Source: a virus
Reading direction: 5' to 3' (one strand)
DNA length: 23,951 nucleotides
IMG/VR virus record: IMGVR_UViG_3300006875_000165
Coordinates: 1 to 23,951 of that record
Part shown: positions 1-23,951 of the stretch, in pieces
Numbering within the stretch: position 1 is the first letter of the stretch
Layout: the number at the start of each line of letters is the position of its first letter
Made by a program: the position numbers and the translations under genes
Notes under the pieces: generated by a model
Seen by the model: only the letters and a program-made list of their open reading frames with translations
Told to the model about the DNA's origin: nothing
The model's database searches: none

Positions 1-13
1 TAGACTGTGAGGC

Positions 14-398: not shown

Positions 399-413
399 GA
401 AAGGACACCTGCC

Positions 414-644: not shown

Positions 645-650
645 CTGCTA

Positions 651-1408: not shown

Positions 1409-1428
1409 CCGTAGGTCGTAGGAGACAC

Positions 1429-4126: not shown

Positions 4127-4128
4127 CT

Positions 4129-10517: not shown

Positions 10518-10837
10518 TGGACATGGGAATGGACGGCGGCATGGCGGACTACAGTCCGCTTTACGCTCAGGCGAAGGAGATCCTCGCTGCTGGCATGCTG
10601 GCCGAACTGAAGGAAGATGCCGAGGAAGCGATGGGCGGCGAAGGTGGCTACGAGGAAGACATGTGCCCGCATTGTGGCTCCAAGATGGGTGGCCCGATGG
10701 GCAACCCGATGGCCACCCCCCGCCTGGCCCAGCCGATGGGACTGCCCCCCGAACTCGCCATGCGCGTGCCTGCTTCCCCGCAACCCCCAATGCCGATGGG
10801 AGGCATGAGCCTTCCGCAGATGAACCTAGGAGCCTGA
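10514..10837 (+). CDS. Met/Gly/Pro-rich small protein with CPHCG
   Basis: A 107-residue protein overlapping the resolvase stop by ATGA. Residues 14-38 form a probable helix (YSPLYAQAKEILAAGMLAEL). Then comes an acidic patch and one CPHCG knuckle at about 51-55, half of a zinc-ribbon pattern, so dimerisation would be needed to complete a site. The remainder is a repetitive Met/Pro/Gly tail. No function is recognised. Low-complexity Met-rich tails like this occur in small phage structural or scaffold-like proteins, but that is a weak guide. Confidence 0.65.
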   Translation: MMDMGMDGGMADYSPLYAQAKEILAAGMLAELKEDAEEAMGGEGGYEEDMCPHCGSKMGGPMGNPMATPRLAQPMGLPPELAMRVPASPQPPMPMGGMSLPQMNLGA

Positions 10838-10838
10838 C

Positions 10839-11369
10839 ATGGCGGTACCGTCAATCAACCTTGCTGGTCTCAACCTTTCCGGTCTCGCCAACCTTGGCGG
10901 CCTTGGCACCAGTCGATCCGTGACGTCAAGTGCTGCTTCACAGCGGGCAAGCAACGCCCGAGCAGCCTCGTCGTCACGTCCGTCTGTTTCTGCTAGGCCA
11001 ACTACTAGTGCATCCCGCACAGGTGGCGTAACCGCAGGCCGTCCGACGGCTGGCACACGACCTGTTGCTGGTGGTGTTGGCACCGTGCGTCCTGCTGGGC
11101 GTATCGGCCTCTACAGCCGTGAGGATTTGCCGCCGGATACCGGCCCGATGCCCGGTCGTGTCGGCCCTCCGGCACCCGTGATGACACCTGGCGAAGAAGC
11201 ACAGCAACAGCAGCAGCGCGGTGGTTATGAGCGTGGCGCCGGTCTTGTCGGCCGGTTCTCGGCAATGGGTACGCGTGACGGCCGTTTCAAGGCTCCTGCG
11301 TCCGACCTTGCTCAGCAGTTGGCGAAGCGCAAGTTGCGTCAGCCGACGTTCGCTATCGAAACAATGTGA
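10839..11369 (+). CDS. Low-complexity hypothetical protein
   Basis: A 176-residue protein with AGGAG nine bases before the ATG. Residues 1-30 are Leu/Gly-rich (INLAGLNLSGLANLGGLG), 30-85 are Ser/Ala/Arg/Thr-rich and 85-130 are Gly/Pro-rich, with a Gln run near 126-130. The last 45 residues (GGYERGAGLVGRFSAMGTRD...) look more ordered. I see no known domain. It lies two bases after its upstream neighbour and just before the DUF6321-like gene, so it belongs to the same late plus-strand transcript. A virion or tail-associated role is possible. Confidence 0.65.
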   Translation: MAVPSINLAGLNLSGLANLGGLGTSRSVTSSAASQRASNARAASSSRPSVSARPTTSASRTGGVTAGRPTAGTRPVAGGVGTVRPAGRIGLYSREDLPPDTGPMPGRVGPPAPVMTPGEEAQQQQQRGGYERGAGLVGRFSAMGTRDGRFKAPASDLAQQLAKRKLRQPTFAIETM

Positions 11370-11370
11370 C

Positions 11371-11697
11371 ATGGCTAGTCCGGCTTGGCAACGTGCCGAG
11401 GGCAAGAACCCGCAAGGCGGATTGAACGCTAAGGGTCGAGCCTCGTACAAGGCGCAGACTGGTGGCACGCTCAAAGCGCCAGTCAAGAGTCGCCCGTCAG
11501 GTCCGGAAGAAATGCGTCGCAAAGGATCGTTCCTATCGCGCATGGGCAACATGGCTGGGCCGGAACGGAAACCGAACGGTGAACCAACCCGCCTCCTGTT
11601 GTCGTTGAAGGCGTGGGGTGCCGACAGCAAAGCCGAAGCAAAGTCAATGGGCAAGCGTCTGCTTGAGCAGTACGCCGCACGAAAGGCAAAGGACTGA
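11371..11697 (+). CDS. DUF6321-like small phage protein
   Basis: A 108-residue protein. I place the start at ATG 11371, because the recognisable family begins MASPAWQRAEGKNPQGGLN and the longer upstream frame overlaps the previous gene. The signatures are GGLNAKGRASYKAQTGGTLK (residues about 16-35), GSFLSRMGNMAGPE (about 58-71) and PTRLLLSLKAWGA (about 78-90). I recall this pattern as DUF6321, a family of basic small proteins spread through marine phages and some bacteria, with no known function. It contains many Lys and Arg residues, so nucleic-acid binding is possible. Its stop overlaps the next ATG by one base. Confidence 0.8.
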   Translation: MASPAWQRAEGKNPQGGLNAKGRASYKAQTGGTLKAPVKSRPSGPEEMRRKGSFLSRMGNMAGPERKPNGEPTRLLLSLKAWGADSKAEAKSMGKRLLEQYAARKAKD

Positions 11698-11852
11698 TGG
11701 CAAAGGCATTTTGGGATAAGCCGAACCCGAACAAGAAGTCAACGAAACTGGACGAGAACGGTAAGCAGTTGGCCCGCGAGATGGCTCGCAAGGCTGGTCG
11801 TCCGTATCCGAACCTTGTTGACAATGCTGCTGCTGCACGGAGGACGCGATGA
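11697..11852 (+). CDS. Tiny basic hypothetical protein
   Basis: A 51-residue protein (begins MAKAFWDKPNPNKKS), too short for a standard gene length cut-off. Its ATG shares a base with the previous stop, and its own TGA overlaps the next ATG, so it sits in a chain of coupled genes. It is basic, with a helix-like centre (ENGKQLAREMARKAGRPYPN). The phrase F-W-D-K-P-N-P resembles short phage proteins that accompany DUF6321-like genes, but the function is unknown. Confidence 0.7.
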   Translation: MAKAFWDKPNPNKKSTKLDENGKQLAREMARKAGRPYPNLVDNAAAARRTR

Positions 11853-12007
11853 AACCCGAACGCAAAGTTGCCAAGGTGATGCGCGAGTTCAAGGCTGGTG
11901 GTCTGCACTCCGGTAAAGGTGGCAAGGTTGTTACCGATCCGAAGCAGGCTCTCGCTATCGCACTCTCGGAAGCGAAGATTGCTCGGAAGAATAACGGCAG
12001 GTCATAG
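11849..12007 (+). CDS. DUF6496-like small basic protein
   Basis: A 52-residue protein overlapping the previous gene by ATGA. It carries the pattern KVMREFKAGGLHSGKGGKVV followed by KQALAIALSEA, which I recognise as the DUF6496 type found in phages and in many bacteria. Its molecular role is unknown. The Gly/Lys-rich turn and an ALAIALSEA helix suggest a compact basic fold that may bind nucleic acid. It is the last gene of this plus-strand run before an intergenic region with a promoter. Confidence 0.78.
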   Translation: MKPERKVAKVMREFKAGGLHSGKGGKVVTDPKQALAIALSEAKIARKNNGRS

Positions 12008-12027
12008 CGTTATTTGGGCGTCCCGCC

Positions 12028-12055
12028 TTGACCTTTAGCGTCAACCTCATACAAT
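12028..12055 (+). promoter_or_regulatory. Sigma70-type promoter for 12120 gene
   Basis: TTGACC at 12028-12033 and TACAAT at 12050-12055 are separated by 16 bases, close to the housekeeping consensus. It lies in the 112-base gap before the exported lysozyme-like gene and would give a leader of about 60 bases ending in the GGAGG at 12110-12114. Confidence 0.55.
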
Positions 12056-12119
12056 CGGTGGAGCCACACAAACGGCAACTTGACGGCTACGGCCTCGTTG
12101 CCCTTCACCGGAGGTATCC

Positions 12120-12677
12120 ATGCGGCGCATTACCCAAGCAGTTCTTGTCATTGTGTTATCGGCATGCGGGGTCGCTCTCGCCCAGCCATCGGGCGCTCCA
12201 GCCCCAGCACCCACAACCACAACCGTCGTCCCCGTCACGACGACCCAAGCCCCGACGACGACCATCCCGGCCACGACGACCACTACCACCATCCCCTTCG
12301 GCTTCACACCGTTGTGCCCGGTGGCTATGGAGATCGCCCGCAAGGTCGGTTGGCCCGAGTCCGAACTCGAGCATCTCGATTACCTGGCTCATCGTGAGAG
12401 CCGGTGCGACATCACGGCTGACGGTCAGCCCCGCCACGCCTGGAATCAAGACGACCCAGGGTCAGGGTCAAGGGGCTTGGTCCAAATCAACTCGGCCTGG
12501 TGCGCCAAGAATCGCTGGAATCCGCATCCTGCGGGCTTCCTAGGGGCGCTAGGCATCCTTGACGACTGTGACGACCTGTTTGACTGGGGAACGAACCTGA
12601 GGGCCGCTAAAGCCATTTGGGACTATGACATTCAGGTACACGGTTGGGACGGCCGTTGGTACGCCTGGAGATTATGA
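12120..12677 (+). CDS. Exported lysozyme/transglycosylase-like protein
   Basis: A 185-residue protein with GGAGG five bases before the ATG. Residues 1-21 form a signal peptide. A lipobox-like LSAC with Cys15 competes with a cleavage site after ALA (19-21). Residues 22-60 are a Pro/Thr linker with runs of Thr. The catalytic domain (63-185) resembles small SLT/lysozyme-type muramidases: Glu93 in HRESRCD is the likely catalytic acid, and GSRGLVQINSAWC (116-128) matches the G-L-x-Q-I-N motif. Four Cys (66, 96, 128, 150) could form two disulphides, as expected outside the cytoplasm. A phage could use it to remodel the wall at late lysis or to display it on the host surface. It is separate from the main lysis block and has its own promoter. 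Confidence 0.78.
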   Translation: MRRITQAVLVIVLSACGVALAQPSGAPAPAPTTTTVVPVTTTQAPTTTIPATTTTTTIPFGFTPLCPVAMEIARKVGWPESELEHLDYLAHRESRCDITADGQPRHAWNQDDPGSGSRGLVQINSAWCAKNRWNPHPAGFLGALGILDDCDDLFDWGTNLRAAKAIWDYDIQVHGWDGRWYAWRL

Positions 12678-12678
12678 C

Positions 12679-12707
12679 TTGACAGTCCGGTAACCAGTCC
12701 ATAGAGT
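12679..12707 (+). promoter_or_regulatory. Promoter, probably leaderless, for 12715 gene
   Basis: TTGACA at 12679-12684, a 17-base spacer, then TAGAGT at 12702-12707 (TANNNT type). The ATG of the next gene is at 12715, only seven bases after the -10 box. Transcription should therefore begin at or within a base or two of the ATG, and no ribosome binding site precedes it. Leaderless transcripts are common in actinobacteria. Confidence 0.7.
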
Positions 12708-12714
12708 CCGAACC

Positions 12715-13236
12715 ATGACACCTGCCAAAGAGATAGTGCCCGTCGGGGACAGCGTCGTTGCTCTCGACACCACCGCCAGCCTTCAGGCTGACCTGTTGCG
12801 CGCCGACGACCGTCGCCGTGAACTCGTCGCAGCCGGAGACTGGCAAACCCTGACCTACGGACTGGTCGAACTCCGCAAGATCAAGAACGACCTCGACGCC
12901 CTAGTGCGCGAGGTGGAGGAAAACATTGCTTCGCTCCTGCCGGAGAAGAAGGTCGTCCTCGAGAACCTGGGAGTGATCGAGCGCCGTACCGCCAGCAGCC
13001 GCAAGTGGGACTCCGAGGGACTGTTGAAAGACCTCGTCCGCACCACGCTGGACCCGGAAGGCACCGGCGAAGTCCATGTTCAAAATGTCCTGAACCTGAT
13101 CGAGTTGCTCAAGAAGGTTCTGCCGCTGACCGGCTCGCTCGGTTGGAGAGTTACACCCCTGCGCGAACATGGCGTAGCGGTGGACGACTACAGCGAAACC
13201 ACCTACGGTCGTTCGACCGTCCAAATCACCAACTGA
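12715..13236 (+). CDS. RecT-associated hypothetical protein
   Basis: A 173-residue cytosolic protein with a coiled-coil helix at about residues 48-75 (LVELRKIKNDLDALVREVEE). A middle segment contains R-R-T-A-S-S-R-K-W-D, and a C-terminal part contains WRVTPLREHGVAVDDYSETT. The R-x-x-x-K-W-D...W-R-V...G-x-x-x-D-x-Y layout is one I associate with a common actinophage family of unknown function encoded next to recombination genes. It is the first gene of the recombination block, read from a promoter that places the ATG at the transcript start, and recT follows after 11 bases. Confidence 0.7.
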   Translation: MTPAKEIVPVGDSVVALDTTASLQADLLRADDRRRELVAAGDWQTLTYGLVELRKIKNDLDALVREVEENIASLLPEKKVVLENLGVIERRTASSRKWDSEGLLKDLVRTTLDPEGTGEVHVQNVLNLIELLKKVLPLTGSLGWRVTPLREHGVAVDDYSETTYGRSTVQITN

Positions 13237-13247
13237 AGGGGATAACC

Positions 13248-14168
13248 ATGACAGACACACAAGCCATCGAAGTGGCCCGGCCACTCTCACCCGCCGAAAT
13301 CTCATGGAAGGTGGCGCAAAAGATCGCCAACACGCCTTTCGTGCCGACAGCCTTCCGAGGCAAACCGGAATCGGTGTACGCCGCTGTCCTGTACGGCGAG
13401 GAACTCGGCCTCGGGCCGATGCAGTCCCTGACCCAAATCCACGTCATCGAAGGTAAGCCGTCTCTCGCCCCCGAAGGCATGCGTGGACTGGTCCTGAAGG
13501 CTGGTCACCGGATCGACGTGAAGATTGCCAGCAACGACAAGGTCGTTTTGTACGGCAAGCGTGCCGACTCCGGTTCCGAAGCCACCGTTGAATGGACGAT
13601 GAAGGACGCACAACTCGCTGGGCTTGCTGGGCGTGGCGCATGGAAAACCTATCCTCGGGCGATGCTCATGGCTCGAGCCACTTCCGAACTGTGTCGCATG
13701 CTGTTCGCTGACATCATTGCCGGACTGTCCTACACGCCGGAGGAAGCAGCCAGCATCGCCGGTGTCGAATGGTCCGAGACACCAGCGCCGACACCGACAC
13801 CAGCATTGGCAACCTTTGAGCCTGCCCCGGTGGCCGACATCGTGGACACCATTGACGAAGCCCTCGCCTACGAACCGGAGGTTCCGATGGTGAAGGAAGC
13901 ACCGATGACGGTGGCCGAGGTGCAAGAAATCTTTGATGCCGAAATCGTTGACAACGAATTCCAGGTGCGGCCCGAAGACGCCGCTACCGGCAAGCAGATC
14001 AACATGATCCGGGCTATCGGCAAAGGTGTCGGACTCGGCCATGACGACCTGAAAGGTGTGGCCTCCGGTCTGCTCGGACGAGAAATCAACGTGCTCGCCG
14101 GGATCACCAAGCGCGAAGCGTCGCAGATCATCGACCATCTGAAGGCCATGCCGGTGGTGGCATCATGA
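13248..14168 (+). CDS. recT: RecT-family ssDNA annealing protein
   Basis: A 306-residue recombinase that anneals complementary single strands. I choose ATG 13248, which has AAGGGG nine bases upstream, since a longer frame would overlap the previous gene by over 200 bases. The RecT core is clear at residues 15-165: VAQKIANTPFVP, YGEELGLGPMQSL, IEGKPSLAPEGMRGLVLKAG and AWKTYPRAMLMARATSEL. Residues 170-245 are an acidic Pro/Glu-rich linker. Residues 247-300 (ATGKQINMIRAIGKGVGL..., LTKREASQIIDHL-like end) form a small helical domain often attached to actinophage RecT and ssDNA-binding proteins. No partner exonuclease is seen nearby. The next gene overlaps by ATGA. Confidence 0.9.
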   Translation: MTDTQAIEVARPLSPAEISWKVAQKIANTPFVPTAFRGKPESVYAAVLYGEELGLGPMQSLTQIHVIEGKPSLAPEGMRGLVLKAGHRIDVKIASNDKVVLYGKRADSGSEATVEWTMKDAQLAGLAGRGAWKTYPRAMLMARATSELCRMLFADIIAGLSYTPEEAASIAGVEWSETPAPTPTPALATFEPAPVADIVDTIDEALAYEPEVPMVKEAPMTVAEVQEIFDAEIVDNEFQVRPEDAATGKQINMIRAIGKGVGLGHDDLKGVASGLLGREINVLAGITKREASQIIDHLKAMPVVAS

Positions 14169-14404
14169 GATTGTTCCGCCGGTTCGCTGACCGCAAACAC
14201 ACCATCGCTTTCATGAGCCGCCACTTGCTCGAATGTGCCGAAGTGATTGAAGCCCTACGCCTCGAGAACGAACAGTTACTGTTCCGAGGCAACCGGCTCG
14301 CTGAAGCCATCGACAACAACGACGGCACGATCAACGCCGCCTGGAAACTCGGTGACGCCATGAGCGCATGGATGGAATACTCGGAGCGCGTCAATGTCGA
14401 ATGA
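14165..14404 (+). CDS. Small hypothetical helical protein
   Basis: A 79-residue protein joined to recT by an ATGA overlap. It is mostly helical, with a basic N-terminus (RLFRRFADRK) and a Leu/Glu-rich coiled-coil stretch (LLECAEVIEALRLENEQLL). No family is recognised. Translational coupling to recT suggests co-production, and overlap of its end with the WhiB-like gene continues the chain. Confidence 0.68.
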   Translation: MRLFRRFADRKHTIAFMSRHLLECAEVIEALRLENEQLLFRGNRLAEAIDNNDGTINAAWKLGDAMSAWMEYSERVNVE

Positions 14405-14906
14405 CATCATCTTCAGTTGGCAAGCATCTGTCTCGGACGACTTCAAAAAGGACGCGGCATGTCGGGGAATGGACCCCGAGTTCTTCATGCCGTCCGTCGG
14501 TAAGCACGGCAGGGAGGCCAAAGAGGTGTGCAACGGGCGCACGGCAACGCGCTCCACACCCGGCCTTCCGCCGTGCCCCGTCAAAGACAAATGTCTCGAA
14601 TACTGCCTGTCCCTCCCTGGGCCGGTCGTCGGTATTTGGGGTGGATTGACCGAACGGGAACGCCGACTCCTACGACGCGAAGAACAACCCGTCCGAGTCC
14701 GATTCCATCACGGCACCGCCCACGGCTACCGGCTCCACACGCTGAACAAGACCACACCGTGCGACGCATGCCGCCGAGCACACACCGCAGCCAACCAGGC
14801 GTGGCGAGACAAGAACCGAGACAAAACCACCATGCGAGCATTGAAAGACCTGCTTGACACCGTCGCTGAAGTGCATCGAGATGCCACACCACGACCTGCC
14901 GAGTGA
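14394..14906 (+). CDS. WhiB-like regulator with extra C-terminal motif
   Basis: A 170-residue protein. Residues 20-95 carry the WhiB iron-sulphur domain: Cys23 (ACRGMDPEFF), Cys46 (EAKEVC), Cys61 and Cys67 (CPVKDKC), then the turn GIWGGLTERER (80-90). WhiB proteins bind a [4Fe-4S] cluster and act with sigma factor to control transcription. Here 14 residues separate Cys46 from Cys61, against the usual two, so there is an insertion in the cluster loop. Cys71 is an additional cysteine. Residues 107-130 add a second module, HGTAHGYRLH...CDACRRAH, a pattern I have seen in small actinobacterial and phage proteins and likely metal-binding. The likely role is switching host or phage transcription. 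It overlaps both neighbours. Confidence 0.85.
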   Translation: MSNDIIFSWQASVSDDFKKDAACRGMDPEFFMPSVGKHGREAKEVCNGRTATRSTPGLPPCPVKDKCLEYCLSLPGPVVGIWGGLTERERRLLRREEQPVRVRFHHGTAHGYRLHTLNKTTPCDACRRAHTAANQAWRDKNRDKTTMRALKDLLDTVAEVHRDATPRPAE

Positions 14907-15045
14907 AGCCGACTGCGACCTTTGCGGTCAACCAGTCAGCCCCGTCACCCGACACAACTTCCACCCACAAACCGGCCAGGTGACGTGCGATGCCTGCCAC
15001 GACCATGAACACTCATACACCCGATACAGAAAGGACTACGAATGA
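14881..15045 (+). CDS. Tiny zinc-finger-like protein
   Basis: A 54-residue protein from ATG 14881, the first ATG in frame; a TTG-started extension upstream is less likely. It contains CDLCGQPV at 12-15, His residues at 24 and 27, and CDACHDHEH from 36. Two CxxC knuckles separated by about 20 residues fit a small zinc ribbon. It overlaps the end of the WhiB-like gene by 26 bases and the next gene by four, so the reading frame is supported by tight packing. Function unknown, probably nucleic-acid or protein binding. Confidence 0.7.
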   Translation: MPHHDLPSEADCDLCGQPVSPVTRHNFHPQTGQVTCDACHDHEHSYTRYRKDYE

Positions 15046-15377
15046 ACGTCATCCAACTCCCGCTGGACTTCCGAGCCACCGACCCGGAAACCAGCAAGCA
15101 AGGCCCGAGAGGATTCCGCCGCACTAGCGCCATCTTCAAAATGCTCGAGGTCTACTGCCTGAACGACGTCACCGACGAAGAAGCCGTCGAACTGCTCGTC
15201 GGTCACCCGATCACCATCAACGAAGAAGGACTCCGCCGTCGCTGCTCCGACCTGCGGGCGCTCGGCTGGATCGCCCCCACCGGAGATGTCCGATACAGCG
15301 GCCGAGGCCGTTCGCGCATCGTATGCGCTATCACAGACGCCGGGCGTGACGCCTGGATGGAACTTCAAAACAACTAA
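15042..15377 (+). CDS. Winged-helix DNA-binding protein
   Basis: A 111-residue protein beginning in an ATGA overlap. Residues 11-30 carry RATDPETSKQG, a lead-in I know from many phage helix-turn-helix proteins (D-P-x-T-S). The centre has TDEEAVELL followed by LRRRCSDLRALGWIAPTGD (helix, recognition helix and start of the wing), then SGRGRSRIVCAITDAGR. This matches a MarR-like winged helix that would bind DNA, as a replication or transcription regulator. The family role is not established. It belongs to the plus-strand regulatory block after recT. Confidence 0.72.
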   Translation: MNVIQLPLDFRATDPETSKQGPRGFRRTSAIFKMLEVYCLNDVTDEEAVELLVGHPITINEEGLRRRCSDLRALGWIAPTGDVRYSGRGRSRIVCAITDAGRDAWMELQNN

Positions 15378-15387
15378 GGAGAAACCA

Positions 15388-15798
15388 ATGAAACCTGCCA
15401 TCATCATCACCGGCCTGCTCGGCCTCGTCGCCTGCTCCAGCAGCACGACAACCAGCACGACCCAAGCCCCGGCTCCGGTCGTCACCGAAGCACCAATCAC
15501 GTTGCCACCGGCAACCAGCCCCATTGTGCCCGACTTCGTCAACAGCGAACAGTTCCTGGTGGAATTCGTATCGGAGCAATACCCATACACGCTGTACGTC
15601 ACCGATCAGCAGATCATTGACACCGGCTGGGCGACATGCAACGCGCTCGACGCAGGCATGGACCCGACTGCGATTGTCGCAGAACTCTTGATCGCCGCCG
15701 AAGGTGACGAGAAGATCGCCCTGCTTCTGACCATCGTCACCGGCGGAGCGACCGGCATCCTCTGCCCCGAGTACGTCAACGTGTGGGACCGTGGCTGA
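15388..15798 (+). CDS. Exported lipoprotein, DUF732-like
   Basis: A 136-residue protein from ATG 15388 with AAGGAGA eight bases upstream, one of the strongest ribosome sites in the window. Residues 1-16 are a lipoprotein signal ending in LVAC with Cys16. A Ser/Thr/Pro linker runs to about 47. The mature domain has Cys84 in GWATCNALDAG and Cys126 in GILCPEY, a two-cysteine helical arrangement like the actinobacterial DUF732 proteins (C...lCP). Such a protein would be anchored on the host surface. A phage could use it for superinfection exclusion, as surface lipoproteins do elsewhere, but that is inference. Confidence 0.75.
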   Translation: MKPAIIITGLLGLVACSSSTTTSTTQAPAPVVTEAPITLPPATSPIVPDFVNSEQFLVEFVSEQYPYTLYVTDQQIIDTGWATCNALDAGMDPTAIVAELLIAAEGDEKIALLLTIVTGGATGILCPEYVNVWDRG

Positions 15799-16033
15799 CC
15801 TCGTGACTGACGACATTGTGACCCGACTGGAACAAATGGCAAGTAACTTCAAGACAAGCGAATGGGAGTTTGTGTATGCCGATTATGAAACGGTGTGTGA
15901 AGCAAGTCAAGAAATTGAACGACTGCGCAAAGCCATCGTGGACTATGTGATGACAATCAGCGACTGCTACGCCACCACCGCAACAGACAGCGATGCGCTG
16001 GAACTATTGAAACAGGCGGTGCGTGGTGAGTGA
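15791..16033 (+). CDS. Small hypothetical protein, paralogue A
   Basis: An 80-residue acidic protein read from GTG 15791, overlapping the lipoprotein gene by eight bases. It begins MADLVTDDIVTRLEQM and has EASQEIERLRKAIVDYV at about 36-52. The same DDIVT start and EIERLR segment recur in the next gene, so the two seem to be duplicated copies of a small coiled-coil family that is common in phage accessory regions. Function unknown. Confidence 0.65.
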   Translation: MADLVTDDIVTRLEQMASNFKTSEWEFVYADYETVCEASQEIERLRKAIVDYVMTISDCYATTATDSDALELLKQAVRGE

Positions 16034-16205
16034 CGACATTGTGACCCTGCTCCGTGAACTCATGTACTACGGGACATTCCCCGATGAGTCGGTGTACGGG
16101 CGAGCAGTACTTGCCGCCGCCGACGAGATCGAACGGCTACGGGCAGCCCTCGAGGAAACACGCAAAGAACGTGACTTGTGGGAGCGTGAAGCCCGCCGTG
16201 ACTAA
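16023..16205 (+). CDS. Small hypothetical protein, paralogue B
   Basis: A 60-residue protein read from GTG 16023 or GTG 16026, beginning (M)VSDDIVTLLRELMYYG and ending in a coiled coil, AADEIERLRAALEETRKERD. It overlaps the previous gene by 11 bases and shares its DDIVT and EIERLR motifs, which points to a tandem duplication. Function unknown; phage proteins of this kind are often annotated only as hypothetical. Confidence 0.6.
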   Translation: MVSDDIVTLLRELMYYGTFPDESVYGRAVLAAADEIERLRAALEETRKERDLWEREARRD

Positions 16206-16341
16206 AGAACCAATCAACGACCGATGGAGATGCCCAAAATGCCGCAGAAGTATTACGACCCACGTGCCGCTCTCAACGGCACCGCATTGCATACGCCATA
16301 CCGGCAAACCCGTGGAGATGAAGCCGTGGCCGCTGCGATAG
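16198..16341 (+). CDS. Tiny zinc-ribbon protein
   Basis: A 47-residue protein from GTG 16198, overlapping the previous stop by eight bases. It shows RWRCPKCRRSITTHVPLS (CxxC at 12-15), then APHCIRHTG (Cys31, His34) and a VEMKP end. This CPxC...HVPLS...C..HTG...M layout is familiar from short actinophage proteins. The site would bind one zinc through three Cys and a His. A longer frame with the same end, starting at 16054, would lie across the neighbouring gene and is not used. Confidence 0.65.
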   Translation: MTKEPINDRWRCPKCRRSITTHVPLSTAPHCIRHTGKPVEMKPWPLR

Positions 16342-16433
16342 GGCAACAGATTATCTTCTACACCTGGATGGCGGGCTTCACCGCCACCTGTCTCGCCATT
16401 ACTTACGCCATCATCAAACGGATTCTGAAGTGA
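16326..16433 (+). CDS. Tiny single-span membrane protein
   Basis: A 35-residue protein from GTG 16326 with GGAG eight bases upstream. One membrane span covers about residues 8-29 (IIFYTWMAGFTATCLAITYA), followed by KRILK, so the C-terminus is probably inside. A longer frame opens at ATG 16224, but its extra residues cover the zinc-ribbon gene and look non-protein-like. The following gene overlaps the stop by four bases (GTGA). Function unknown. Confidence 0.55.
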   Translation: MAAAIGQQIIFYTWMAGFTATCLAITYAIIKRILK

Positions 16434-16675
16434 CCCGCAACCGAATCAACATTGACGTCGACCCGCACCTGCTGAAATGGATTGACCTTACGGCAACCAT
16501 TGTCGGAGCGAACCGAACCGAAACCGCTAGGGCGCTACTCAAAATGATGTCCGAGAGCAACCCTCGCTACGACACGCTCAAGACACGGATCGCAGAGCGA
16601 CGGGCAGAGATGAATCAGTCTCGCTCCCAGCACCAAAGCGCCCGCCATCGTCCTCGACAGCAATCGCCGCAATAA
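16430..16675 (+). CDS. Ribbon-helix-helix DNA-binding protein
   Basis: An 81-residue protein from GTG 16430. Residues 3-45 fit a ribbon-helix-helix fold: strand NRINIDVD, helix PHLLKWIDLTATIVG, turn, helix NRTETARALLKMMSE. Such proteins bind DNA as dimers through the strand and usually repress promoters. The last 30 residues are low-complexity Gln/Arg/Ser and lie antisense to the end of the convergent recombinase gene. It closes the plus-strand block, and its natural targets could be the recombinase or island promoters, but this is speculative. Confidence 0.7.
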   Translation: MTRNRINIDVDPHLLKWIDLTATIVGANRTETARALLKMMSESNPRYDTLKTRIAERRAEMNQSRSQHQSARHRPRQQSPQ

Positions 16676-17498
16676 CCTCCGCCTGGCTCACCTGACGCAA
16701 CCGGGACGGCAAACACAAGACACGCCGAACCCAGCGTTCGTTCGTATGGCCAAGCCACTTCGAAATAATCAGCGGATCAACCCCACGCTGATACTGCCGG
16801 TACACCGACGCCCGACGAAGCTCCTGAGCAGTCAACGGACGACCAATCGCCGCCTCCACAAACCGTTTCACCCGCACCGACGCCCGATCAGCTGTCAAAC
16901 CACCAGCCAACGGCGACGACGGAGCGAACACCGCCGCCAACCCCAACGACAACACCTCAAGACGTCCTGACACCGCGACATCACGCGGTCGTTCCGCACG
17001 ACCCCGCACCCGCACCAACGTCTGCCCGTCAACCGTCCGAACATCCATCCCCCGCACCCGCAACGCCTCAGACGGCTCGAGAGCACAGTATGCGACCATC
17101 CCCACCAGCCACTCCCAACGAGGACCAGCCTTCCCCGCAGCATCCATAATCGCCCGAAGCTCATCCTCAGACGGCACATACGGCGTCACAACCTTCCGAA
17201 ACGGCTTCGGCACCCACGCATCACGCCACCCGTGACCATGCACCACACCGGCCTTCATCAACGCATCAAACCACGACGTCAACCCCGACACTCGAGATTG
17301 AACCGACGACGGCGTGTAATTCGACCGCAAAAAGTCAATAAACGCTTGACAATGCTTCCAATTCGCATCCAGCGCATGAACACCATTCTCTTTGCACCAA
17401 CGCTGCCAAAGAACAATGTCCTTCTTGTACCGATCCCGAGTCTCGAGCGACTTCTTCGACGCCAAAAACTGGGCGGTTACCGACCGAACCGTAGACAT
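16578..17498 (-). CDS. Degenerate tyrosine recombinase homologue
   Basis: A 306-residue protein with the plan of phage integrases: an N-terminal SAM-like DNA-binding domain (about residues 5-90, ETRDRYKKDIVLWQRWC) and a C-terminal catalytic fold (about 108-275). The ATG at 17498 has AAGGTGAG upstream. Active-site residues can be placed and most are missing. Box I reads ALEPSEALRVR, so Glu141 replaces the first catalytic Arg. TAQELRR has Gln225 for His but keeps Arg228. LGH keeps His251. The nucleophile position in GHTNERWVRRV is Val260, and no Tyr follows. The reading frame is intact, so this is not a simple pseudogene. It may bind DNA without cutting it, or work as a partner. It is encoded convergently with the preceding plus-strand genes. 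Confidence 0.8.
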   Translation of the reverse strand: MSTVRSVTAQFLASKKSLETRDRYKKDIVLWQRWCKENGVHALDANWKHCQAFIDFLRSNYTPSSVQSRVSGLTSWFDALMKAGVVHGHGWRDAWVPKPFRKVVTPYVPSEDELRAIMDAAGKAGPRWEWLVGMVAYCALEPSEALRVRGMDVRTVDGQTLVRVRGRAERPRDVAVSGRLEVLSLGLAAVFAPSSPLAGGLTADRASVRVKRFVEAAIGRPLTAQELRRASVYRQYQRGVDPLIISKWLGHTNERWVRRVLCLPSRLRQVSQAEVIAAIAVEDDGGRFGAGSETDSSLPVALRSVS

Positions 17499-17559: not shown

Positions 17560-17642
17560 CAAATTGTCCCACACCCAGAGCTTTGGGTGGCCCGCCCGCC
17601 TTGCCGTCGGCCAGCTCGCTTCGAATCGAGGCCAGCCGATAC

Positions 17643-17655
17643 TTGTAGAGTGCAA
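17643..17655. repeat. Dyad element, left copy (TTGTANNGTGCAA)
   Basis: TTGTAGAGTGCAA, inside a wider inverted repeat ATACTTG/CAAGTAT at 17639-17659. The same 13-base pattern recurs twice at 21292-21320 and I found it nowhere else in the window. It lies between the terminator of the island operon and the recombinase promoter, so it could be an operator or a recombination core. Confidence 0.65.
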
Positions 17656-17678
17656 GTATTCCGACCCGAGACGCGAAA

Positions 17679-17710
17679 CGGCCCCGACCCGCCGAAACAG
17701 ATCGGGGCCG
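17679..17710 (-). terminator. Terminator hairpin of the minus-strand operon
   Basis: CGGCCCCGA (17679-17687) and TCGGGGCCG (17702-17710) form a perfect 9-bp stem with a 14-base loop. It starts 22 bases after the stop of the last operon gene (17732). On the minus strand a short T run (GTTTCGC) follows the stem. The GC-rich stem with a weak T tract is usual for high-GC bacteria. Confidence 0.6.
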
Positions 17711-17731
17711 AGTAACTCGACGTGCTCGAGA

Positions 17732-18025
17732 TCAGGGTAAGCCGTCGAGCCGATACCGCGCGCCGACCGTGAACGCCTCGACAACGCCAGCGAGCGCGCC
17801 GACCGTGGCCGCCGGTGGAAGCCCGAGCACATGCCACCGAGCCCCACCGCCACCGACGCGCTCGAGCCACAACGCCCACCCGCCAGGTACCGAGCCGTAA
17901 CCCCACCGCCAACCGTCCGGGGCCGCAGGCAGCGCCCGAACGAGCAGCGGTAGGCACCCGGGGCCATGTCGATGCTCGACCGACCCGCTCGAGCACAGCG
18001 CACCGCGTCGAGGGTCACCGAGCAC
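17732..18025 (-). CDS. Hypothetical protein, last island gene
   Basis: A 97-residue protein read from GTG 18025, overlapping the preceding small membrane gene by 11 bases. The part from residue 26 looks protein-like: GPGCLPLLVRALPAAPDGW, then WALWLERVGGGGARWHVLG and ATVGALAGVVEAF. It is rich in Trp, Gly and Ala, with no signal peptide. No family is recognised. A hairpin terminator follows the stop. A longer frame at 17503-18468 in another phase has a less natural composition and is rejected. Confidence 0.6.
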   Translation of the reverse strand: MLGDPRRGALCSSGSVEHRHGPGCLPLLVRALPAAPDGWRWGYGSVPGGWALWLERVGGGGARWHVLGLPPAATVGALAGVVEAFTVGARYRLDGLP

Positions 18026-18143
18026 GACGCACCGCCCACCACACGAGCACCACGCCGGCCCCGAGCAGCCACCACGAGCCGCCCGACGTCGAGCACGTCA
18101 CGCCTGGCAGGTCGCAGGCCATGTCGACCGCGGCGGCGCTCAC
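18015..18143 (-). CDS. Tiny single-span membrane protein
   Basis: A 42-residue protein from GTG 18143, whose GTGA overlaps the stop of the GP88-like gene. It has two Cys (10 and 17) in an outer-side segment, then a Trp-rich span SWWLLGAGVVLVWWAV (about 23-38) ending RRAR, so the C-terminus is probably cytosolic. The overlap with both neighbours supports it, though it is below the usual size cut-off. Function unknown. Confidence 0.6.
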   Translation of the reverse strand: MSAAAVDMACDLPGVTCSTSGGSWWLLGAGVVLVWWAVRRAR

Positions 18144-19123
18144 GAGGCCACCTCGACACGCTCACGCAACCGCACCGCAACAGCAGCACCGAGCCGCCCA
18201 CTCGAGCCGCCTCGAGCTCGACCGCCGTGCACCGTGAACAGTACCGACGCCTCGAGGCCACCCGGTAGGCATAACCCGCAGGCCACGCAGGCCCCGACCG
18301 CCGGGCCGCCCTCGATGAGACTCGACCGCCGACCGTCGGGCCCGACGACGTGCGCAGGGAACCCGCTACCGTCGACGTAGGCGGCCGTGACAGGGCACCG
18401 CCGCATCGAGGCCACACCGGGCCACCGCTCGAGCACTCGAGCCCACAAAGCCGCAGCGTCGACGTCATCGACCGCGAGCAGTGCCACCGGTAACCGGTAC
18501 CGTCGAGCTACGTCGACCGCCCGACCGAGGTTATGCCTGTCGACCGAAACGTAGATTCGAGCGTTAGGCGCGTCCGTGACGACGTGCCGCACGAGGCCAG
18601 TCGAGCGCGTGTAAAGCCAATGATCGACGCTAGGTGTCGCCTCGATGACGTGCCGCACCGCTCGAGCGAACCAGGGCGCGAATAGGTCACCGTCTGACAT
18701 CCATCGAAACGTGGCCGACCGCACACCCTCGAGACGTTGGTCGACTGCCGACCGCTCGACGAGCTCGAGTAGAGCAGACTCGACCGCTCGACGTCCGCCG
18801 CACCGGTACAGATGCTCGAGCGTCTCGAGGTTCCTCGAGGCCATCCGACCGAATGGTCGAGCCCATGCCTCGAGGCCCGCTGCATAGCAGTCTGCACACG
18901 ATGGAGTCACACCCGGACAGCTGCCGCCGTCCTCGAGCGGGCCCGCCGGTAATGGGAAAGCGTTACCTATCGAGGCCTTAGCTACTCGACCATCGAGCCG
19001 CACTCGAGGCGACGTCTTAGAGTCGAGATGCAACGAGAACCGCAGCAGCTCACCGCATCGACACTCGAACTCGAGCCGACCCCTCGACAGACTCGACACC
19101 CGGGCAAACCGATCCCGTCTCAT
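18140..19123 (-). CDS. GP88-like cysteine-rich phage protein
   Basis: A 327-residue protein. I choose ATG 19123, in an ATGA overlap with the previous stop and GAGGCGGG upstream; the longer frame gives an unnatural N-terminus. Key motifs are SKTSP (35-39), a Cys triad Cys69, Cys76 and Cys79 in SCPGVTPSCADCYA, FRWMSDGDLFAPWFARAV in the centre and CVACGLC (279-285) near the end. A CXP...C..CYA start with a later S-D-G-D motif resembles the phage GP88 family and, more distantly, Gp37/Gp68 proteins. The cysteine spacing suggests iron-sulphur or zinc binding. The biochemical role of these families is not established as far as I know. It is the only gene of the island operon with a recognisable family. 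Confidence 0.75.
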   Translation of the reverse strand: MRRDRFARVSSLSRGRLEFECRCGELLRFSLHLDSKTSPRVRLDGRVAKASIGNAFPLPAGPLEDGGSCPGVTPSCADCYAAGLEAWARPFGRMASRNLETLEHLYRCGGRRAVESALLELVERSAVDQRLEGVRSATFRWMSDGDLFAPWFARAVRHVIEATPSVDHWLYTRSTGLVRHVVTDAPNARIYVSVDRHNLGRAVDVARRYRLPVALLAVDDVDAAALWARVLERWPGVASMRRCPVTAAYVDGSGFPAHVVGPDGRRSSLIEGGPAVGACVACGLCLPGGLEASVLFTVHGGRARGGSSGRLGAAVAVRLRERVEVAS

Positions 19124-19446
19124 GATGCACCCGCCTCGATGACGTAATACGTTTCCTCGAGGGTTCGAGCCTGCTCGATACAACTCGAGCACACCGGCAC
19201 AACGTCGAAACCAGGCTCGAACACGAGCAGCCACGACGTACGGTATGGGTCGAGCATCGACACTCGACAACCCTCGACCCCACACTCGAGCAGGCCAGTT
19301 AGAGCCCACTTGCGCGCCGCAATGTCGATTCCCTCGAGAACATGCCTCGAGGCCGCCGCCACCATGCCTACGCCTCGAGGCCCGCGCCGATTACCGGCCC
19401 AGGCCTCGACGACGTCGACAATGTCAGTCGATGAGATAACACTCAT
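19120..19446 (-). CDS. Zinc-ribbon-like hypothetical protein
   Basis: A 108-residue protein, joined to both neighbours by ATGA overlaps. It begins MSVISSTDIVDVVEAW. At 54-88 it has CGVEGC, a long beta-like spacer and VCSSC, a C-x4-C...C-x2-C pattern that probably binds zinc. The end, ARTLEETYYVIEAG, is likely a helix and strand. No family is recognised. It is encoded directly before the GP88-like protein and may act with it. Confidence 0.68.
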   Translation of the reverse strand: MSVISSTDIVDVVEAWAGNRRGPRGVGMVAAASRHVLEGIDIAARKWALTGLLECGVEGCRVSMLDPYRTSWLLVFEPGFDVVPVCSSCIEQARTLEETYYVIEAGAS

Positions 19447-19730
19447 GCCGCACCGTCACTCTCGAGCAGGCGCTTAGGCAACCGCGGCAGGTTTCGAATA
19501 CTCGACAACCCATCGACAAACTCGGTCGGAATCTCGACGCCTGTCACTCGATGCGCCCGCAGCCATACACCCGCGTCACAGTCCTCCTCGAGATACAGCC
19601 ACCCGGCCCGCGGGTCGACATACGAATACGTCGAGAACCGCAGCCCCTCGCCCGAGACAACCGGTACCCGCAGCCACGCGTGACCCGCATCGACATGCCA
19701 CCGCACACCCTCGAGGACGGCCGCCATCAT
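19443..19730 (-). CDS. Phage protein with YLEEDCDA motif
   Basis: A 95-residue protein that begins in an ATGA overlap with GAGGCGG just upstream. The core is beta-rich: HAWLRVPV, LRFSTYSYVD, GWLYLEEDCDAGVWLRA. I recall small phage proteins that share H-x-W-L-x-V-P, a S-x-Y-S-Y-x-D stretch and YLEEDCDA, spread across many phage groups. Their function is unknown. This lends support that the operon is genuine phage coding sequence despite its odd DNA composition. Confidence 0.7.
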   Translation of the reverse strand: MMAAVLEGVRWHVDAGHAWLRVPVVSGEGLRFSTYSYVDPRAGWLYLEEDCDAGVWLRAHRVTGVEIPTEFVDGLSSIRNLPRLPKRLLESDGAA

Positions 19731-20395
19731 GACACACCGCCTCGAGCGTCGCGCTCGAGTTCGTACTCGACTCGAGCCTCGACGGCCGCCTCGAGCATGG
19801 CCTCGATGTCGACCTCGTCGCCATACTCATCGAACCACAACCCACCATAACCGCGCCTCGAGTATCCCGAGTCGAGAGCCCACGCCTCGATTGATTCGTA
19901 ACCGTCGAGCACGTCAGCTCGAACACTTTCGAACCGGTCGAGTCGATCAACACAACGAGCCAACGCCTCGAGCAGCCGCACCGACCGCACCGACTCGAAC
20001 AGTCGAGCAGCCTTACTCGAGTCGAGCTGCTCGACACCGCCGAGAACATGCACCGAGAGACGCAACATATCGACTGCAGCTAACCGCACCGCCTCGAGCA
20101 CTCGAGTCTCGAGGGCACCGCGTCGAATAACTCGAGCAGCCTGCTCGAGCGCCGTCGAGTCGATCCACAACCCCGAAAGACTCGAATACGCCTCGAGCAC
20201 CGGCTCGAGCTCGACACCACGAGCGCGCACAATGTCGGCCGCGTGATGAGAGATACACCCGATGAAATCTGAATCCTCGAGAGCGTTCGCCTCGGCCGCT
20301 TCGAGACACTCGACGTCGAGCACGTAACTCGACGCGTCGACCGGCTCGATGGTCTCAGACTCGAGACCCATAAAGACCCACCGACCCGCGCTCAT
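19727..20395 (-). CDS. Leu-Glu-rich hypothetical protein
   Basis: A 222-residue protein, mostly helical and acidic. It contains about eleven Leu-Glu pairs, most encoded by CTCGAG read in frame, so the DNA word shapes the protein. Examples are VLDVECLEAAEANALEDS, VELEPVLEAY and LLEALARCVDRLDRF. The C-terminus has RRGYGGLWFDEYGDEVDIEA. No family is recognised. It overlaps both neighbours by ATGA. It could be a coiled-coil or helical-bundle protein. The abundance of the word in three phases across these genes makes a purely codon-level explanation unlikely. Confidence 0.68.
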   Translation of the reverse strand: MSAGRWVFMGLESETIEPVDASSYVLDVECLEAAEANALEDSDFIGCISHHAADIVRARGVELEPVLEAYSSLSGLWIDSTALEQAARVIRRGALETRVLEAVRLAAVDMLRLSVHVLGGVEQLDSSKAARLFESVRSVRLLEALARCVDRLDRFESVRADVLDGYESIEAWALDSGYSRRGYGGLWFDEYGDEVDIEAMLEAAVEARVEYELERDARGGVS

Positions 20396-20727
20396 TGCTC
20401 GAGCTCCGAACCCTCGACCGTCGACTCGACGATAGGCAGACTCACAACCTCGAACGAATGCACCGACCGCGCCAACTCGACATAATCAGAATGCTCGAGC
20501 TCGTAGCGAGCATCCCGACGCCAGTCACCACCTCGAGGCCGGCCCTCGATGTCGACCCCACCGACGCCTGGCTCATCGAGCGCACACTCGGCCGCATCCT
20601 GAGCACCGTCATACGTCGAGAACACACTCGACCCCACTCGACGCACACCGTCTCGATAGCAACGCACTAGACGCCACTCGACCGACTCCCCCCTCGAGGG
20701 AGGATGAAACGAAACTTGCAAGCGCAT
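20392..20727 (-). CDS. Hypothetical protein of the island operon
   Basis: A 111-residue protein with a good ribosome site (AGGAAAGGGGG) before ATG 20727. It starts MRLQVSFHPPSRGESVEWRL and continues with GSSVFSTYDGAQDAAECAL, beta-like and then helical, and ends Glu-rich. No family is recognised. The strong ribosome site makes this the most secure first gene of the minus-strand operon if the frame upstream of it (20753-21004) is not real. Confidence 0.7.
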   Translation of the reverse strand: MRLQVSFHPPSRGESVEWRLVRCYRDGVRRVGSSVFSTYDGAQDAAECALDEPGVGGVDIEGRPRGGDWRRDARYELEHSDYVELARSVHSFEVVSLPIVESTVEGSELEQ

Positions 20728-20752
20728 GACGCGCCCCCTTTCCTGGCCGCCC

Positions 20753-21004
20753 CTATGGCAACCTCGAGCACGAGCCTACGCCACCGCTATTACCCTGACA
20801 AGCACCGACCCCACCCTCGAGCACCACCCTCGACGAACTATTCGAGCTCGAGCACGCTCGAGGCCGGACGCCGTCGGGAAGCATGGCCGGGGCCTCGAGG
20901 TAGCTGCTCGAATAACTCGACTCGACGAATCCCGAGAGCCCTAGAGCCCTGTAAGCGTCTCGAGCGGTAGGGGATGGGTGGTAGTGGCCCTCGAATAACG
21001 TCAT
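20753..21004 (-). CDS. Possible first gene of the island operon
   Basis: An 83-residue frame from ATG 21004, ending 25 bases before the next gene. The first half looks protein-like (MTLFEGHYHPSPTARDAYRA, then LGLSGFVESSYSS). The second half is low-complexity Ser/Gly/Arg. No ribosome binding site is visible before the ATG. It may be a real small gene, or an open frame created by the CTCGAG-rich sequence, which rarely produces stops. Confidence 0.35.
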   Translation of the reverse strand: MTLFEGHYHPSPTARDAYRALGLSGFVESSYSSSYLEAPAMLPDGVRPRACSSSNSSSRVVLEGGVGACQGNSGGVGSCSRLP

Positions 21005-21287
21005 GACGAAATAGGTCGGGGCTCGAGTGTCGAGGTTCGGTCCTCGAGGCCGGCCGACTCGACTCGAGGATCGAGGCCGCAGGCCGATGGTCGACCGCTC
21101 GAGGCTGCTGCTCGAGTAGCACCGGGTTTCGAGAGCGGCTGCACCGGTGCTCGAGGCCGGCCCGCGCAGCGTCGAGGATCATCGAGGCCGGACTACTCGA
21201 GTCTCGAGCTCGAGCTCGAGGATGGCCGCCGGTGATCCCGACCGGCTCGACCGGTGACCGAGTGCCCTGCCCCGAGTGACCCACCCG
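21005..21287. other. Non-coding part of the CTCGAG island
   Basis: About 280 bases with no convincing gene on either strand, although open frames exist because the words here rarely make stops. It contains about ten CTCGAG copies, including CTCGAG alternating with CTCGAGCTCGAG near 21199-21221. If transcription of the minus operon starts near the dyad elements at 21292-21320, this stretch would be a long leader whose repeated palindromes can pair with one another. Confidence 0.6.
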
Positions 21288-21291
21288 TTAC

Positions 21292-21320
21292 TTGTATGGT
21301 GCAATAGTTGTACTGTGCAA
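21292..21320. repeat. Tandem dyad elements, right copies
   Basis: TTGTATGGTGCAA (21292-21304) and TTGTACTGTGCAA (21308-21320) are two copies of the 13-base pattern TTGTANNGTGCAA, 16 bases apart. The outer ends form ACTTG/CAAGT. The same pattern is at 17643-17655, on the other side of the island. They overlap promoter-like words: on the plus strand TTACTT (21288-21293), 17 bases, TACTGT (21311-21316); on the minus strand TTGCAC, 18 bases, TACAAG. They are probably repressor operators in a divergent promoter region, or recombination sites. Confidence 0.6.
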
Positions 21321-21540
21321 GTGTCCCCCCGACATGCCGGGTGGGGTCTGACCGACCCCTGCCCCCCGCCCAGCCCCCAAGGGGGGTCCCCGGCCTATCA
21401 CTATCACTACGTATTCCCGTATTTTTTGACCTTCGTGGGCGGCGGGGTGGGACTCGAAGTGGGGTGTGGTGACCGTAGGTTGTGGTTACTGCTAGTAAGT
21501 TTTCGTCGGGGTAATAATTTGACGCTCACTAATACCACTC
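21321..21540. other. Gene-free stretch with GC hairpin and AT patch
   Basis: No convincing gene on either strand. A hairpin GGGGTC/GACCCC lies at 21343-21348 and 21354-21359. C and G runs follow up to 21390. An AT-rich patch with T6 at 21422-21427 and TAATAATTT near 21512 lies after that. None of these forms a clear terminator or promoter. Confidence 0.45.
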
Positions 21541-22399: not shown

Positions 22400-22560
22400 C
22401 CGCAGCAGAACTTGAGAAACCCGTCCTCATCAACCTGCGAGTAACAGTCGCCTGGCGGGACTTCGCCCACGATCAAGCCCGAAAGCACGGGATGACCCTC
22501 ACCGCGTACATCAAGACGCTGATCGAACTCGCCGCAAAGACCGACACACCCAATGGCTGA
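22396..22560 (+). CDS. Small ribbon-helix-helix protein
   Basis: A 54-residue protein linked by an ATGA overlap to the previous gene. The sequence from residue 9 fits a ribbon-helix-helix fold: strand PVLINLRVTV, helix AWRDFAHDQARKHG and helix LTAYIKTLIELAAK. Such small proteins repress their own promoter through short palindromes. The inverted repeat at 22054-22079 is the nearest candidate site. Its end overlaps the start of the following gene by eight bases. Confidence 0.72.
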   Translation: MTAAELEKPVLINLRVTVAWRDFAHDQARKHGMTLTAYIKTLIELAAKTDTPNG

Positions 22561-23107
22561 ACGGAAAGTGTGGAAAGACGCCGCAGAAATCGCTGACGGC
22601 ATCGAAGGACGCAAACCTTCCGCCCCACGCCCACCCAAACTTGTCGTCGACAGCATCGCAGACCTCCCGGTTATCAGCAAAGCCGAAAAACAGCAGGTTG
22701 CTAAAGCGAAACGGGCCGCCGACATCGAAGAAGCCAGGGTTCGTAAGTCGCTCAATAAGGAAGAACAACGCAAACGAGCCGACCAACTCAAGGTATTGGG
22801 CGAAGAATTGCTCGCTCGAGGGGTGGCAAGCCGAGAAATCCTGCCCAAATTGGCGCAATCCATCATCGTCGACCTCGGACTACGGCTCGTATCAGGCGAA
22901 TGGGAGATCAAATCGGCTGAAGAAGCCACCAAAGTGTCCAAAATTTGGTATGACATCCTCCGTTTGGAGATGGGACAAGCCACAACGATCAACGAACAAC
23001 GTGTCGGCAGCCCCGAAGACCGCATGATGCGTCTCGAAGAACTCAAATTGGAAGCAAAACGGCGTGTCGAAGCCGGATTACGGGCAATCGGAGACGGAAA
23101 CTCGTGA
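22553..23107 (+). CDS. Candidate terminase small subunit
   Basis: A 184-residue basic, mainly helical protein directly before the terminase large subunit, with which it shares GTGA. Residues 40-85 are a charged coiled-coil-like stretch (KAEKQQVAKAKRAADIEEAR, then KSLNKEEQRKRADQL), and 85-150 look globular (ASREILPKLAQSIIVDLGLR). The position and helical nature fit a small terminase that recognises phage DNA for packaging, but no helix-turn-helix is obvious, so it could be a different accessory protein. Confidence 0.55.
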   Translation: MAERKVWKDAAEIADGIEGRKPSAPRPPKLVVDSIADLPVISKAEKQQVAKAKRAADIEEARVRKSLNKEEQRKRADQLKVLGEELLARGVASREILPKLAQSIIVDLGLRLVSGEWEIKSAEEATKVSKIWYDILRLEMGQATTINEQRVGSPEDRMMRLEELKLEAKRRVEAGLRAIGDGNS

Positions 23108-23951
23108 ACCTGCTCTCCGACGACGAATTCGTCCAACTCACCGCCCAAGAACAAGACGAATACCTCAAACTTCTTGAGGCCGACCTCACCGCCTGGCGGT
23201 TGACCGGCAACGAACGCCAAGAACGAGCCAACATCCTCGTAAAGAAAACCGATTGGCTCCTCTACGGAGGAGCGGCCGGTGGCGGAAAGAGCGAACTGCT
23301 TGCCTATCACGCACACGAACTATCCACCAAATACCCCGGACATCGCACACTTCTCGTCCGTACCGCCCTGCCGGAACTACGACGCTCACTCATCATCCGC
23401 AGCCAAGTCCGATACGCCCAACTGAACGTCCCCGCCCAGTTGCGATCCATCGACAACGTCAAAGCCTGGTGGTACGACAACGGTTCCATCATCGAATACG
23501 GCTATTGCGCTCGAGACGAAGACGTCGGCCAGTTCATGTCAGCCGAATACGACTTCATCGGATTCGACGAAGCAACACAGTTCACCCCCTACCAAATGCT
23601 CATGATGTCCGGCCGTCTACGCACCAGCCGCAAAATGACCCAAATGGGCGTCCGAACCCACGTCATGTTCGCCACCAACCCAGGCGACAAAGGCCATACG
23701 TTCCTCTACAAAATGCTGGTCCAACCCACCAACAACGGCCAATACGCCGTCGTCTACGACGTCCGAGAAGGATTCGAAAACCCCGACATTGTGAGACGGG
23801 TAGAACTACCGCTCGACAACACGGAACTGGCGAGTACCATCATCCCGCACGACCCCAACGATCATCTTGTGGTCGCCTTTGTCCCATCGACGGTAGACGA
23901 CAACCCACACATCGACCCGTCGTACCGCAAACACCTGTCGATGCTTCCCGA
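23104..23951 (+). CDS. terL: Terminase large subunit, partial
   Basis: The gene runs off the window end after about 282 codons. It starts at GTG 23104, overlapping the previous stop by GTGA. TerL is the ATPase and nuclease that drives DNA into the capsid. The ATPase domain is clear: Walker A GGAAGGGKS at about residues 55-63, Walker B YDFIGFDEATQF at about 149-160, with the catalytic acid in DE, and the coupling motif VMFATNPGDKGHTF further on. The nuclease domain lies outside the window. The missing portal and capsid genes should follow to the right. Confidence 0.93.
   Translation, partial: MNLLSDDEFVQLTAQEQDEYLKLLEADLTAWRLTGNERQERANILVKKTDWLLYGGAAGGGKSELLAYHAHELSTKYPGHRTLLVRTALPELRRSLIIRSQVRYAQLNVPAQLRSIDNVKAWWYDNGSIIEYGYCARDEDVGQFMSAEYDFIGFDEATQFTPYQMLMMSGRLRTSRKMTQMGVRTHVMFATNPGDKGHTFLYKMLVQPTNNGQYAVVYDVREGFENPDIVRRVELPLDNTELASTIIPHDPNDHLVVAFVPSTVDDNPHIDPSYRKHLSMLP

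Follow-up and report, generated by a model that had tools for sequence, protein, structure and literature searches.

The palindrome CTCGAG, with TCGA as its core, saturates a 3.6-kb island in the virus record IMGVR_UViG_3300006875_000165 (23,951 bases, hereafter the window), and the word-rich DNA appears to fill a single leftward operon, from hairpin to hairpin. The excess acts at the level of the DNA word and across genes, and, judged from its distribution among related phages, the TCGA/CTCGAG density of this shared operon is derived in the lineage of the window phage and its relative G002.

An earlier interpretation of this DNA (the sequence-only reading) had noted about 63 copies of CTCGAG in 3.6 kb against roughly one per kb elsewhere. 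The first figure is exact: 63 of the 87 copies in the window lie inside 17700-21250, which corresponds to 17.7/kb compared with 0.99/kb outside, an approximately 18-fold difference. The second figure holds as a density, but not as a background level, since CTCGAG is itself mildly enriched outside the island (19 observed vs 5.5 expected). Across positions 1-17000 it occurs about once per kb, 3.4 times expectation, and TCGA is not enriched there. An order-1 (dinucleotide) model predicts 3.7 copies for 17700-21250, and none of the window shuffles matched the total of 87. TCGA occurs 176 times in the same interval against 33 expected, and TCG is followed by A in 90% of cases inside the island vs 22% outside. 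The C to the left and the G to the right of TCGA are preferred independently, with 63 CTCGAG observed and 61 expected from the flank frequencies, and the palindrome is therefore graded, with TCGA as its centre; once composition is corrected, the flank preferences are symmetric. Thus, while CTCGAG is enriched as had been claimed, the word proper is TCGA flanked by C and G, and the patch coincides with one operon instead of being an arbitrary island. Two-state segmentation delimits a TCGA-rich stretch at 17621-21247 (178 TCGA) and a CTCGAG-rich stretch at 17725-21215 (63 CTCGAG), and the GC content of the island is 62-68%, compared with 53-61% across the remaining window. Regular CTCGAG spacing outside the island was seen in only one of three segments (P 0.02).

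The limits of the operon were drawn from its hairpins, the order of its genes and the density of the word, and its predicted elements are as follows.

17641-17657, no strand assigned: third ACTTGTANNGTGCAAGT operator-like copy, between the integrase start and the island (motif match)
17679-17710, minus strand: terminator-like GC-rich hairpin at the 3' end of the operon, conserved in the alignment with G002
17732-18025, minus strand: gene for 97 amino acids, the last of the operon, with tblastn homologs in other family loci
18140-19123, minus strand: GP88-family protein (PF17338; Pfam E 1.9e-19), 327 amino acids, putative TIM barrel with clusters of conserved cysteines
19120-19446, minus strand: island open reading frame, 108 amino acids, without family match
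19443-19730, minus strand: island open reading frame, 95 amino acids, with a homolog in L281
19727-20395, minus strand: island gene, 222 amino acids, restricted to window and G002, the two CTCGAG-rich members of the family
20392-20727, minus strand: island gene, 111 amino acids, found only in the two CTCGAG-rich members among the loci searched
20753-21004, minus strand: possible open reading frame, 83 amino acids, without homolog support
21005-21279, minus strand: non-coding operon leader with 10 CTCGAG and 18 TCGA
21290-21322, no strand assigned: two overlapping ACTTGTANNGTGCAAGT operator-like copies inside a large inverted repeat (motif matches)

The hairpin at 17679-17710 is stable (71-nucleotide fold of -41.5 kcal/mol, z -4.5), has only a short U tail and was omitted by the automatic terminator scan. 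At the opposite end, the ACTTGTANNGTGCAAGT matches compare with 0.46 expected by chance, and the element at 21290-21322, which folds with z -5.1, probably marks where the promoter/operator of the operon lies. No match to the window came from Rfam or from a tRNA scan. The 222-residue protein has no further homologs beyond the window and G002, and its structural model, with a predicted local distance difference test score (pLDDT) of 56, is too poor to judge a role as a DNA-binding reader.

Coding constraints were separated from the word bias by shuffling synonymous codons within the same proteins, with protein sequence and codon usage held fixed. Under these shuffles, TCGA remains in large excess in the GP88 gene (44 vs 18.4 expected, z 7.9) and in four small island genes (91 vs 44.0, z 11.7), compared with 7 vs 4.2 (z 1.4) in the adjacent integrase gene; the corresponding z values for CTCGAG are 5-7, and those for TCGA in the islands of G002 and of two further phages described below, G005 and G006, are 12.4, 7.0 and 10.3, respectively. 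All three phases (CTC.GAG, xCT.CGA.Gxx and xxC.TCG.AGx) are occupied, with counts of 9/4/2 in GP88 and 18/6/5 in the small genes, CTC.GAG being the leading phase. The densest part of the island is the non-coding leader, with its 10 CTCGAG and 18 TCGA in 275 bp. The excess over codon-preserving shuffles and the dense non-coding leader place the bias on the DNA word rather than on codons, and codon usage and amino-acid composition are ruled out as its cause. This bears out the sequence-only reading, according to which the excess crosses genes and phases, reaches into non-coding DNA and concerns the word itself; neither dinucleotide nor codon models predict the counts.

A scan with the terminase retrieved 70 loci, nearly all from one uncultured podovirus family, of which 25 have a readable operon slot. 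G001 (42.6 kb) is a second record of the same phage with the same island, and G002, which shares about 77% DNA identity with the window, carries an island at the same place. The search for related genomes with the same feature was thus successful, and an assembly chimera, a possibility raised at the outset, is not supported. Orthologs of GP88 occupy the same slot across the family, at 0-12 TCGA/kb in the full-length orthologs compared with approximately 45-48/kb in the window/G002 clade, which is monophyletic (support 99/98); a partial homolog in L005/L354 has a moderate 19.6/kb. Between window and G002, GP88 and the terminase have diverged to a similar extent, with 84% and 87% amino-acid identity, respectively. 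Since GP88 is present in the slot family-wide and is dense only in window and G002, the bias would have arisen in place and does not mark foreign cargo. A second GP88-like protein, without the island bias, precedes the terminase large subunit in L135:1336-2079 (G003) and about 13 other loci.

Individual sites are not static. Window and G002 share 32 TCGA sites in GP88, with 12 and 10 private to each, and in the 111-residue gene they share 6, with 10 and 8 private. Simple decay would require an ancestor of the latter gene with more than 100 TCGA/kb, and sites must therefore have been gained as well as lost; in this alignment, the density persists through the replacement of individual sites. Inside the island, fourfold-degenerate positions that overlap TCGA are conserved at 0.64 vs 0.61 for other positions in one comparison and 0.85 vs 0.54 in another, whereas outside the island such positions are mostly much less conserved than others, a figure that is partly an artefact, as the presence of a rare word in one sequence is itself a sign of difference.

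Additional islands were sought starting from CTCGAG patterns; their number is at least that given here, and their boundaries are less well defined outside the window family. G006 (L139 and L140), a phage with an HK97-type portal and next to nothing in common with the window phage, carries 93 CTCGAG inside its island compared with 3 in the 23.5 kb outside; in G005, which shares few genes with the window phage, the counts are 49 inside the island and 4 across 20.8 kb outside. Smaller CTCGAG patches are located at the contig ends of L187 and L227. The G006 island lacks ACGT, GTAC and TGCA, and CATG is essentially absent from both this island and the coding sequence in the 23.5 kb downstream. Other operons depart from expectation in the opposite direction. 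The MoxR/VWA operons of L301:4180-8356 and L239/L309 (L309:1-4368) are rich in TCGA and GATC and poor in CTCGAG, with 2 CTCGAG seen vs 15 expected from the flanks in L301, none in L309, and about 1/kb outside the operon. In the slot of L276:3900-8500, TCGA itself is avoided approximately eightfold (2 vs 23 expected), and is near normal outside. In this operon, TCGA/CTCGAG therefore matters whether it is enriched or avoided. The idea that each phage saturates its slot with a palindrome of its own is not general across the 25 family slots; in those other than window, G002 and L301, word z values mostly lie around 3-5, the highest being 8.3 for CCGA in L276. Literature on CTCGAG clusters in phage operons was searched and nothing relevant was found.

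The genes encoding an integrase, RecT, an SU10/P22-like portal and WhiB point to a temperate podovirus of Actinobacteria, and gene content suggests that the phage is an actinophage-like member of an uncultured family. Among cultured phages none is close to it, and the phage and plasmid collections gave no DNA relatives or close protein relatives of the island. A search for the host in genomes gave a single match, a 3.2-kb contig (L303) binned as a planctomycete metagenome-assembled genome, which carries a terminase of the same family (83% identity) and is probably misbinned. Homologs of GP88 in cultured phages are leftward genes near one genome end, and by analogy with this position the island operon is probably expressed early; in Streptomyces phage Wofford the GP88 homolog adjoins an Lsr2-like gene. 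GP88 contains seven invariant cysteines (C69, C76, C79, C243, C279, C282 and C285), and its AlphaFold model (pLDDT 85) is predicted to be TIM-barrel-like, with no match in the PDB at E < 0.001. The island is flanked by the following features.

16578-17498, minus strand: tyrosine integrase, left neighbour without word bias (family match, codon-shuffle test)
21373-21427, no strand assigned: family-conserved GC hairpin and CCCGTATTTTTT element adjoining the island (family comparison)
22553-23107, plus strand: probable terminase small subunit, directly before the terminase (synteny with relatives; no Pfam match)
23104-23951, plus strand: terminase large subunit, truncated by the contig end (family match, synteny)

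Independent contigs of several relatives begin or stop at the hairpin/CCCGTATTTTTT element, which could be a genome end, a hairpin that is hard to sequence, or a recombination boundary.

The reading we favour, with a probability of about 0.4, is that the island is an operon-wide array of TCGA/CTCGAG sites for a double-stranded DNA factor, most likely host-encoded, and that the operon was rewritten in place. Such a factor would recognise the short palindromes and read the operon as a block; candidates are a nucleoid protein, a silencing protein, or an adenine methyltransferase that acts at TCGA/CTCGAG and is paired with a reader. With sites this dense, the phage might hold the operon silent during lysogeny or shut it off after replication. 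Recognition of DNA and not of RNA is favoured by the symmetry of word and flanks, the dense non-coding leader and the equivalence of the two strands. A factor of the host is favoured because the window phage and G006 lack genes in common. In this operon the word is saturated in some relatives and avoided in others, which is in keeping with a site that has strong effects there. Several observations weigh against this array: helical phasing of the sites is absent; other palindromes also vary widely among these operons, TCGA being the strongest odd word and not the sole one; no methyltransferase occurs among the Pfam matches of the assembled island phages; 176 sites in 3.6 kb far exceed the needs of any known regulatory array; and many of these patterns would also arise from a process of mutation or repair that is restricted to one transcription unit. 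A methyltransferase gene that tracks the bias was not found, the one candidate lying between the terminase genes in L234 and L235, where the island slot is off the contig. These two loci, the closest relatives of the window phage, encode there a protein whose DPPY motif is characteristic of N6-adenine methyltransferases (L234:1668-2969 and L235:2118-3464), and both contigs stop at the right edge of the island. A broader and more tentative extension is that certain hosts, probably Actinobacteria, possess a factor reading TCGA/CTCGAG, that several unrelated temperate phages independently rewrote a whole accessory or early operon, its non-coding as well as its coding DNA, to be controlled as an epigenetic block, and that relatives facing other hosts erase the word from this operon.

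The main rival to such an array is a repair ratchet, in which a bias linked to methylation or transcription turns near-matches into TCGA/CTCGAG without any benefit from the word, and which we consider unlikely. A ratchet was proposed for highly iterated palindrome (HIP) sequences, which occur genome-wide at approximately 1/kb and are linked to methyltransferase sites (PMC4390886). It would account for the depletion of the near-neighbour words TCAA, TCTA, TCGC, GCGA and TGGA inside the island and for the coincidence of the bias with a transcribed unit, and the genome-wide level of CTCGAG in window phage and G002 (about 1/kb, observed/expected 3.4) is near the saturation of the HIP model (PMC4390886). 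However, that saturation, near one site per kb, is 18 times below the density of the island, and the model leaves unexplained both the relatives whose slot avoids TCGA or CTCGAG and the aligned gains and losses that differ from TCGA at several bases. Import is likewise doubtful. Here the operon would have evolved in a CTCGAG-saturated host or element and then been recombined into phages, a transfer already suggested in the sequence-only reading. GC content and codon use of the island do stand well apart from those of the remaining genome (GAG encodes 91-100% of Glu, compared with 22%), cargo and base composition of the slot vary across the family, and CTCGAG is enriched genome-wide in L098 (8.7/kb) and in Gordonia phage BetterKatz (2.1/kb). 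These densities fall short, however, as among the loci listed no contig comes near 17/kb genome-wide, the highest being about 9/kb. Moreover, vertical descent of GP88 is plausible, given its ordinary family-wide occurrence, its terminase-like divergence and the restriction of the density to the window/G002 clade, all of which disfavour transfer.

Selection at the RNA level, where UCGA/CUCGAG in the transcript would serve self-pairing, stability or an RNA-binding protein, is improbable. The enriched region does match the transcription unit including its leader, but the flanks are symmetric after composition correction, and folding is equal for the sense and antisense strands and does not exceed that of TCGA-preserving shuffles, no RNA structure having been found beyond the palindromes themselves. 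We regard it as very improbable that the island is a restriction decoy or an artefact of assembly. Palindromes of the restriction type, to which CTCGAG belongs, are usually avoided by phages, though less by temperate ones (PMC6286503). No benefit is known, however, of a genome saturated with restriction sites, and an artefact would have to recur in the second record and, at the same place, in the 77%-identical G002.

Known systems share parts of this pattern. Cyanobacterial iterated palindromes such as HIP1 resemble the island in that a short palindrome is far above chance, and the comparison with HIP1 made in the sequence-only reading was apt in this respect and in stressing the greater density; it does not extend to distribution, as HIP sequences are genome-wide at approximately 1/kb and the island is one phage operon at 18/kb, derived in one clade. 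Among known systems the island is nonetheless closest to iterated palindromes, but it is regional, operon-limited and far denser. The stoperators of Cluster A mycobacteriophages, 13-bp asymmetric sites that lie in one orientation and are spread over the genome (PMC6550527), are also many repeated sites in a temperate actinophage, and the comparable GP88 genes lie in a leftward right-end region; CTCGAG/TCGA, in contrast, is symmetric with symmetric flanks and packed into one operon. A search for features of such an array identified no immunity repressor, and the operator-like motif at 17641 and 21290-21322 is distinct from the word. In phage P1, Dam methylation is needed at pac (PMC12707154). 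GATC clusters at P1 pac and at E. coli oriC (SeqA) are, like the island, dense palindromes of methyltransferase type, and there they act as a switch. Both clusters span hundreds of bases, whereas the island comprises a 3.6-kb operon. Silencing by Lsr2 or H-NS, in which protein coats and silences a block of genes, corresponds to the mechanism proposed for the island. The silencers so far known to act in this way prefer AT-rich DNA, and the island is more GC-rich than its surroundings (62-68% vs 53-61%).

No function has been agreed on for HIP1-type palindromes in the decades since they became known, in part owing to their genome-wide spread. The island concentrates such a bias in one 3.6-kb operon, with relatives that lack or reverse it and with repeats in unrelated phages. 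This amounts to a natural on/off comparison, in which methylation, a binding protein and repair bias become testable on a 3.6-kb target.

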